A stretch of 64,000 nt of DNA, from positions 1 to 64,000 of the forward strand of contig NZ_SCUT01000020.1 of the NCBI RefSeq assembly GCF_004297265.1, written 5' to 3'. The notes below the pieces were generated by a model. It did no database searches, had not been told where the DNA came from, and saw nothing but the letters and a program-made list of their open reading frames with translations. Position numbers and translations under genes: made by a program. Positions 7,037 through 8,713 of this stretch are shown here, one piece after another; positions within the stretch are counted from its first letter, which is position 1; every line of letters begins with the position of its first letter. Source of the DNA: Reyranella sp. (GTDB lineage: Bacteria; Pseudomonadota; Alphaproteobacteria; Reyranellales; Reyranellaceae).

Positions 7037-7915
7037 GTGGCTATGCGCAAGGATCTCGACATGGCGCTGGTGCGCGCCTTCCTCACCGTCGTCGAAGCGG
7101 GCGGCGTGACGCGTGCGGCGGCGGTGCTGGGCATGAGCCAGGCCGCCGCCAGCCAGCAGATCAAGCGGCTGGAGGAGGCGCTCGACTGCCGCCTGTTCAC
7201 GCGTCAGGGACGCGGGCTCGTGCTGGCGCCGGCGGGCGAACGGCTGCTCGAACAGGCGCGGCGCCTGGTGGCGATGAACGACGAGGTCTGGTCGTCGATG
7301 CGCGCGCCGCAGTTCGAGGGAGAGGTCCGCTTGGGCGTGCCCTACGATATCATCGGCAGCTTCGTGCCGGCGATCCTGCGGCGCTTCGCCAAGGCGCAGC
7401 CGCGGGTCCGGGTCAGCCTCGTCTGCGAGGATTCGCGCCTGATCCGCGAGGAGCTGAAGTCGGGCGGCGTCGATCTCGCCATGACGACCGAGACGGAATG
7501 CGGCCGCCACGGCGAGACCCTGCGCACCGACCGGCTGGTCTGGGTCGGCGCGCCGGACGGGGATGCCCATCTCAAGGATCCGCTGCCGGTGTCGCTCGGC
7601 GCGCCGACCTGCGTCTTCCGCCCCGTCGCCGTGGAGGCGTTAGGCAAGGCGCGGCGCGACTGGCGTGCGGTCTGCGAGGTGAGCCGGCTGGAGCCGGTCT
7701 ACGCCGTGCTGGAGGCGGGCCTGGCCGTGGCGCCGCTGCTGCGCTCCTCGGTGCCCGAACGCTTCGTGATCCTGGGCCGCGAGGCCCGGCTGCCGCCGCT
7801 GCCGGAGTTCCGCATCAACCTCTATGCGCCACCCGGCCTCGGTCCCGCCGCACGTGACCTGGCCGATCATGTGCGAGCGAGCTTTTCCGGGCGGTCACGG
7901 AACCTCAACAATTGA
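7037..7915 (+). CDS. LysR-family transcriptional regulator
   Basis: The 292-residue product has an N-terminal winged helix-turn-helix (residues 3-62, including GGVTRAAAVLGMSQAAASQQIKRLEE) and a C-terminal LysR substrate-binding domain. It probably controls the divergent DapA-family gene and itself. The start may be GTG at 7037 or ATG at 7043; the latter coincides with the transcription start predicted from the TTATAT box, and no Shine-Dalgarno sequence is visible. The effector is unknown. The stop is followed after a few bases by the structured region at 7921-8065. Confidence 0.92.
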   Translation: MAMRKDLDMALVRAFLTVVEAGGVTRAAAVLGMSQAAASQQIKRLEEALDCRLFTRQGRGLVLAPAGERLLEQARRLVAMNDEVWSSMRAPQFEGEVRLGVPYDIIGSFVPAILRRFAKAQPRVRVSLVCEDSRLIREELKSGGVDLAMTTETECGRHGETLRTDRLVWVGAPDGDAHLKDPLPVSLGAPTCVFRPVAVEALGKARRDWRAVCEVSRLEPVYAVLEAGLAVAPLLRSSVPERFVILGREARLPPLPEFRINLYAPPGLGPAARDLADHVRASFSGRSRNLNN

Positions 7916-7920
7916 TACCA

Positions 7921-8023
7921 AGCGCCCCCTGTGCGGAGGTCGCGCCGGCCCGTATCTTCGCGGGCATGGATTGACGCGGTTCGAGACATCGCCGCGGCGG
8001 CCGACGAGTTTAGAGGGGGCGTC
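7921..8023 (+). ncRNA. Candidate structured RNA (leader or sRNA) before a terminator
   Basis: The non-coding stretch folds by eye into a long-range closing helix, CGCCCCCT (7923-7930) with AGGGGGCG (8014-8021). Inside it is a second helix, GTCG-CGCCG (7939-7947) with CGGCG-GC-CGAC (7995-8005). An inner hairpin GCCCG/CGGGC follows at about 7949-7965. The 5' strand of the closing helix can also pair with GGGGGC at 8025-8030, the 5' arm of the terminator. It does not match small SRP RNA, and I see neither tRNA nor tmRNA features. It could be a leader of the acetyltransferase gene or an independent small RNA. No convincing promoter was found. Confidence 0.4.
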
Positions 8024-8024
8024 T

Positions 8025-8065
8025 GGGGGCCTGGAGAGTGTAACAACTCTCCGGGCCCTCTTTTT
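8025..8065 (+). terminator. Strong intrinsic terminator between LysR and GNAT genes
   Basis: The stem pairs 8025-8039 with 8046-8060 (15 pairs including two G-U wobbles) around the 6-base loop GTAACA. Five T residues follow. The hairpin lies 60 bases upstream of the acetyltransferase start, so it ends either the LysR transcript, the candidate RNA at 7921-8023, or an attenuated leader. Confidence 0.85.
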
Positions 8066-8128
8066 GTGCTGACATGAAAGGGTCATGGAGGCGTGTTTGA
8101 TCCGGTCGTCTCGAAGGAGGAGCGGGTG

Positions 8129-8713
8129 ATGTCTGCAACGAGCGAGTCCGTGCTCGAAAAGCCACGCGGCGCCGTCGTGGTCCGGCCGTCGACCGAAAAC
8201 GACGTGCCGGCCATGATTGCGATCTACACGCACCACATCACACGGGGCGTGGGCGACGTCGATATCGAGCCGACACAGGCCGACGACATCAAGCGGCGAC
8301 GCAAGAACATGCTGCGGCGCCGGTTGCCGCACCTCGCCGCGGAACGCGACGGCGTGATCGTGGGCTATGCCTATGCGGTGCCGTTCCGCAAGCGCCCGGC
8401 CTATCGCTATGCGGTGAAGCACTCGATCTATGTCCATCCCGACCATGTCTCCACCGGGATCGGCCGTCTGCTCCTGCCGGCGCTGATCGAGGCCTGCGCC
8501 AGTGCGGGTTATCGCCAGATGTTCGCCTATGTCGACGCCGACAATGTCGCGTCGCTCAGCCTGCACGAAGCTCACGGCTTTCGCCGCGTCGGCCTGCTGG
8601 AAGGCGTCGGCTTCAAGTACGGCAAATGGGCCGACAGCGTGCTGATGCAGCGCGCCATCGGCCCGGGCAGCACGACGCCGCCCGTCGAGATCGCCTACTC
8701 GCGCACCACGTAG
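8129..8713 (+). CDS. GNAT N-acetyltransferase, phosphinothricin-acetyltransferase-like
   Basis: The 194-residue protein is a single GNAT domain. The acetyl-CoA pyrophosphate loop reads STGIGRLLLPALIEACASAGYRQM (only its core is diagnostic), and the C-terminal part SLSLHEAHGFRRVGLLEGVGFKYGKW resembles the Pat/Bar family, which acetylates small amines such as phosphinothricin or methionine sulfoximine. Start 8129 is chosen for its excellent AAGGAGG site 8 bases upstream; a GTG at 8093 is an alternative. It sits downstream of a terminator and possible structured leader. Its 3' end overlaps the convergent decarboxylase by 19 bases. A polyamine or decarboxylase-product substrate is conceivable but unproven. 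Confidence 0.87.
   Translation: MSATSESVLEKPRGAVVVRPSTENDVPAMIAIYTHHITRGVGDVDIEPTQADDIKRRRKNMLRRRLPHLAAERDGVIVGYAYAVPFRKRPAYRYAVKHSIYVHPDHVSTGIGRLLLPALIEACASAGYRQMFAYVDADNVASLSLHEAHGFRRVGLLEGVGFKYGKWADSVLMQRAIGPGSTTPPVEIAYSRTT

Follow-up and report, generated by a model that had tools for sequence, protein, structure and literature searches.

The intergenic region downstream of a lysR-family gene in Reyranella sp. raises the question of whether it carries a switch that controls the next gene, which encodes a GNAT acetyltransferase, or an RNA gene of its own. Both possibilities had been put forward in an earlier note, made from a single sequence. We addressed the question by comparing the window (the whole stretch of DNA analysed, 64,000 nucleotides) with about 60 Reyranella genomes. 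The window genome belongs to a clade of 13 genomes, of which 12 members, window included, entered the clade alignment. Four-fold sites of lysR and of the GNAT gene, 22% of which are invariant in this clade, served as the neutral yardstick. With a probability of roughly 70%, we read positions 7909-8065 as an independent small-RNA gene, with its own promoter and a noncoding RNA of about 100 nt, whose ORF was deleted in the window's clade. In this same reading, the gene would descend from a dual-function RNA that encoded a membrane-like protein of about 71 residues in its 5' part, as is still the case in most Reyranella species. The features of the locus are as follows.

7037 to 7915, + strand: lysR-family regulator gene (Pfam HTH_1 and LysR_substrate), directly upstream of the RNA unit.
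7909 to 7918, + strand: conserved upstream box CAATTGATAC, a putative activator site overlapping the lysR stop codon (16 of 16 positions invariant over 7907-7922 in 12 clade genomes).
7923 to 7930, + strand: 5' switching strand of the earlier note, 3' of the box and reaching into the -35 element (at 7929-7930), judged to lie outside the RNA.
7929 to 7934, + strand: -35-like element CTGTGC (6 of 6 positions invariant in the clade).
7953 to 7958, + strand: -10-like element TATCTT, 18 bp from the -35 element (5 of 6 positions invariant in the clade).
7966 to 8065, + strand: predicted noncoding transcript of about 100 nt, deduced from promoter, terminator and ORF loss.
7966 to 7974, + strand: remnant start ATG GAT TGA, at the predicted transcription start (about 7966); the equivalent ATG of relatives opens the 71-aa ORF.
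7975 to 7996, + strand: 5' hairpin of the predicted RNA (CGCGGUU..GCCGCG), obtained with RNAalifold on 12 predicted transcripts; weakly supported, with pairs mostly invariant.
8010 to 8023, + strand: core motif TTAGAGGGGGCGTC, with GAGGGGGCG at 8013-8021, a candidate seed or protein site (18 of 18 positions invariant over 8007-8024 in the clade).
8025 to 8065, + strand: Rho-independent terminator (15-pair stem and T5), with genus-wide compensatory changes.
8066 to 8110, + strand: conserved PHO-box-like block, with CTGACAT-N4-GGGTCAT at 8069-8086 (71% invariant in the clade, compared to 22% for neutral sites).
8129 to 8713, + strand: GNAT acetyltransferase gene (Pfam Acetyltransf_1), with its own Shine-Dalgarno sequence AAGGAGGAG at 8114-8122, outside the RNA unit.

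The lysR gene directly precedes the RNA unit in 59 Reyranella loci (59 genomes), and this linkage is constant, whereas that to GNAT is not: of 54 units, 20 are followed by a GNAT gene on the same strand and 34 are not. Three stretches are fully invariant among the 12 clade genomes, namely 7907-7922, 7929-7934 and 8007-8024, and the 18-nt spacer 7935-7952 evolves neutrally (22% invariant). We read this pattern as the footprint of a promoter with a conserved RNA element 3' of it, and not as a conserved long-range helix. The same elements are found across the genus. The CAATTGATAC box is present in 59 of 61 genomes, which exceeds the reversed-pattern control; 53 of 54 units have the CTG of the -35 element, whose distance from a CAATTGATAC-type box hardly varies; and T1, A2 and T6 of the -10 element are retained in 49 to 51 of 53 units, with a constant spacing of 18 bp. 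As part of the small-RNA reading, and with the same confidence, these elements would form a sigma-70-like promoter, preceded by a regulator box. To judge from sequence alone, the unit has the promoter of its own that is expected of an independent small RNA gene. Transcription would start at about 7966 and end at the terminator near 8065, and the adjacent LysR protein probably controls the gene via the CAATTGATAC box.

In the ORF-less unit of genome G071 (L062:2660-2725; also L189 and L302), the upstream box occurs in tandem, CGATTGATACCAACAATTGATACCAA. The box is also found ahead of another conserved Reyranella gene (L156, L171, L174, L190, L193, L210, L150), which has a long leader and encodes a membrane-like peptide of about 45 residues, GGGAGGGGTCC... 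This hints that the box serves a small regulon.

At the other end of the unit, the 15-pair terminator with its T run, first described from the single sequence, was confirmed. Its stem covaries genus-wide, with 64 double-changed cells compared to 29 in shuffles (35 sequences), as expected of a Rho-independent terminator under selection; a clear T run is missing from the G066 and G074 units. Ahead of the terminator, GAGGGGGCG is invariant over 35 sequences, in a set selected for the motif. A covariance model composed of the GAGGGGGCG motif and the terminator stem matched 53 of 65 Reyranella genomes, with one copy each except for a weak extra match in G062, and gave nothing convincing elsewhere in the class (385 genomes). 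Two non-Reyranella matches of this 3' element (E of 0.003 per genome) are expected by chance across 385 genomes. An Rfam search at gathering and relaxed thresholds returned nothing above chance, in agreement with the initial statement that no known class was recognised.

Between promoter and motif, 37 of 59 loci contain an ORF of about 71 codons; in the initial search it was seen in 22 of 36 genus relatives. The encoded protein has a single hydrophobic stretch, is membrane-like and is restricted to Reyranella: no homologue turned up in other genera when 385 class genomes were searched, and no family was matched in Pfam and NCBIfam searches. In all 22 loci that were retrieved solely by similarity of the protein, GAGGGGGCG lies within about 50 nt of the ORF stop, and the terminator follows it wherever the contig extends far enough. 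Only this ORF-bearing set is free of motif selection, as it was the joint presence of box and motif that identified an ORF-less unit. Among the relatives, one group has its ATG 6 to 7 nt after the -10 element, which would imply a leaderless mRNA and, for the window, a transcript start at about 7966; other groups carry a leader. Translation from the equivalent ATG in the window clade gives between 2 and 44 unrelated residues, and close relatives differ by 1-nt indels; on these grounds we consider the reading frame dead. The unit is thus conserved without a conserved reading frame, which is degenerate and marked by 1-nt indels, while the motif is invariant. The combination of an ORF and a noncoding element, by which a dual-function RNA is defined, is found in most relatives and not in the window genome, where the ORF has been lost.

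The history of the ORF was placed on a lysR tree of the 59 loci (rpoB had no match in many assemblies). This tree requires six changes to account for the ORF-less state, and well-supported branches force at least three of them. The state occurs in the window clade of 13; in G021, G018, G030 and G075; in G071; in G066 and G074; in G006; and in G004. In the G004 unit (L180), an internal deletion of the ORF is visible, and the sister genomes keep the ORF. The lysR tree alone cannot polarise the changes, for which losses would be the natural reading, given the homology of the ORFs throughout the tree. Promoter and motif are retained in the ORF-less window clade and in about five other lineages. 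One locus offers an unusually clear natural series of intact ORF, internally deleted ORF and no ORF, with promoter and motif fixed, and this can be used to ask whether the coding or the noncoding half of a dual-function RNA is the one conserved. Within the small-RNA reading and at its level of confidence, the selected core that remains after ORF loss would be GAGGGGGCG(TC), which immediately precedes the terminator.

The motif is not confined to this locus. A second, unlinked small-RNA-like gene carries TTAGAGGGGGCGTC in the same sense, in the intergenic space between a ymdB-like gene and yebC (L339:702-868; G000:C60, about 164760-164930); the names are those we presume from the translations of the flanking genes. 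Further loci are L345, L319, L306, L353-L382 and L387, and in L319 a 6S RNA match that passes the gathering threshold lies in this neighbourhood. Of 65 Reyranella genomes, 63 contain this ymdB-yebC RNA gene. It combines a promoter-like region upstream with two tandem terminators, its motif is invariant in the 22 sequences inspected, and it had no match in Rfam. The sister genus G246 (L387) retains the motif block, and the surrounding RNA has diverged. Those of the other weak extra-family matches from the class-wide search that were inspected turned out to be terminator look-alikes, so that only G246 was convincing. Since one motif lies beside a terminator in two unlinked RNA genes, these observations argue for the motif as the working part.

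How the motif would work was approached by a target search in seven genomes. It yielded no mRNA site that is conserved between two close genomes and would pair perfectly with the motif over 10 nt. The sites kept between close genomes carry the motif itself and not its complement on an mRNA. Besides the ymdB-yebC RNA, they comprise a coding region, a Shine-Dalgarno site and a third candidate. The search thus gives no support to long perfect seed pairing; pairing may be shorter or imperfect, or else the motif may bind a protein.

The third motif-like site (L337 and L348; G000:C50:2846) is conserved in two close genomes and consists of GAGGGGGCGTCGGAA, located 3' of a strong hairpin GGCGCCGATCC..GGATCGGCGCC. 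It is possibly a further motif carrier. Genome G000 also contains dispersed REP-like palindromic repeats CTCTCCCCCTAGCGGGGGAGAGG (L318 and L332), with GACGCCCCCTC adjoining.

We consider it most likely that the product of the lysR-linked gene is a trans-acting small RNA that acts via its G-rich motif, which would either pair with mRNAs in trans or serve as a protein-binding site. An appreciable minority of our belief goes to an explanation in which the RNA is real, and GAGGGGGCG binds an RNA-binding protein or is a 3' decay or stability element instead of a pairing seed. The position of the motif beside the terminator in two unrelated RNA genes speaks for it, as does the failure to find a conserved, perfectly complementary mRNA site. 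Against it, we know of no Hfq feature that consists of sequence-specific G-rich sites of such length beside terminators. In addition, SgrS-type RNAs have their pairing region in exactly such a position (PMC4021124). More generally, the small-RNA reading is weakened in that the motif could act at the DNA level or bind a protein.

The same observations lead to a broader and more tentative proposal, to which we give somewhat less than even credit: a two-member RNA system in the Reyranellaceae, with a shared G-rich 3' motif TTAGAGGGGGCGUC, made up of the universal ymdB-yebC RNA and of a lysR-linked RNA that would have started out as a dual-function small-protein mRNA and lost its ORF repeatedly, with several stages of the loss still visible, and in which the motif would address common targets or a dedicated RNA-binding protein. 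If true, this would mean that there is either a common target set or an RNA-binding protein for TTAGAGGGGGCGUC that is not known elsewhere. The sharing of the motif with a second, universal RNA provides a handle on such targets or binding protein.

A further explanation is that the region is merely the 3' untranslated region of lysR, with its terminator and a decaying small-protein gene, and has no RNA function. The ORF is clearly lost, lysR could still make use of the terminator, and no other terminator lies between lysR and 8065; part of the signal could indeed belong to the lysR 3' end, via read-through into the same terminator. However, promoter elements and motif (18 of 18 positions) are invariant after ORF loss in 12 genomes, compared to 22% for neutral sites, and retention of a promoter is not expected of a dead gene. 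Moreover, other ORF-less lineages still carry this motif, as does the unlinked RNA gene. We therefore regard this explanation as improbable. The conserved promoter and terminator, and their retention after ORF loss, favour instead the independent small RNA that had been named as an alternative at the outset.

There remains the switch, which had been drawn as a long-range helix enclosing a nested one, with a 5' strand able to pair alternatively with the terminator arm. The complementarity of 7923-7930 (CGCCCCCT) to 8014-8021 (AGGGGGCG) is present and perfect over 8 bp, and pairing of 7924-7929 with 8025-8030 is possible in the sequence. For none of these helices did the clade alignment bear out a functional structure. 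Among the 12 members, the long-range helix shows no compensatory change and three of its eight pairs fail in some sequences; the nested helix (7935-7944 with 7998-8007) is paired in only 63% of cells; and the alternative helix likewise lacks compensatory change. Half of the positions of the 5' strand vary in the clade, and genus-wide the strand is not complementary (for example, GCGACACC in L024 and L025). The whole region does fold better than dinucleotide shuffles (z of -5.6, and -6.1 in a second run). Without the terminator the value is -3.2, and for the predicted transcript minus its terminator (7966-8024) it is +0.5; much of the folding excess comes from the terminator. Lack of conservation of the paired strands in homologues had been named beforehand as grounds against the proposal. 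It counts against the switch; conservation falls on other elements. A transcript reading through from lysR into the same terminator is possible, and the helix could form only there; nothing in the clade and genus comparisons suggests selection on the helix in such a transcript.

An attenuator or riboswitch in the GNAT mRNA leader, in which the 5' strand would toggle between an anti-terminator or aptamer helix and the terminator arm, can thus claim the perfect complementarity, a good folding energy and the presence of GNAT downstream in the window genome, but we reject it on present evidence as largely refuted and very improbable, given broken pairs without covariation, a switching strand that lies upstream of the predicted start and is non-complementary in relatives, the presence of GNAT downstream in a minority of genomes, and a separate conserved promoter-like block 3' of the terminator. 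This block (8066-8110) is probably a separate promoter region of GNAT, outside the RNA unit; in relatives it carries TTGACATCAAACCGTCAT ahead of GNAT, and its PHO-box-like sequence suggests separate, possibly PhoB-type, control of the GNAT gene. An inverted repeat, TCAAAC...GTTTGA, also accompanies the block in relatives.

Compared with known systems, the unit resembles riboswitch and attenuator leaders in having an intrinsic terminator at its end, with a gene beyond it, and in that alternative pairings can be drawn. It differs from them in having its own upstream promoter footprint, no conserved alternative pairing and no fixed downstream gene, so that neither the conserved mutually exclusive helices nor the linkage to a downstream gene that characterise such leaders was found. 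It shares with alphaproteobacterial trans-acting small RNAs, of which the AbcR and CcsR families are examples, a small size, presence in single or few copies, an own promoter, a core motif and a Rho-independent terminator. Loops of the anti-Shine-Dalgarno type in the alphaproteobacteria are typically C/U-rich; the Reyranella core GAGGGGGCG, in contrast, is G-rich and has no Rfam match.

The closest parallel in organisation is SgrS/SgrT of enteric bacteria, where the gene adjoins that of its regulator and has a 5' small-protein ORF and a short, nearly invariant stretch between ORF and terminator; some relatives without ORF, in Yersinia, keep a shorter RNA (PMC4021124). The Reyranella unit likewise combines regulator gene, 5' ORF, invariant stretch, terminator and ORF-less relatives. 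The two are not related in sequence, and no SgrS match was obtained in the Rfam search, at gathering or at E<=10. The regulator belongs to the LysR family in one case and is SgrR in the other, the Reyranella RNA is restricted to its genus and has a G-rich core, and its protein is unrelated to SgrT and longer (71 compared to 43 residues). In the literature library searched, there was nothing relevant on Reyranella small RNAs and nothing on the ymdB-yebC RNA. The lysR-linked gene probably represents an undescribed, genus-restricted RNA family, in which a transition from coding to noncoding is visible within a single genus.
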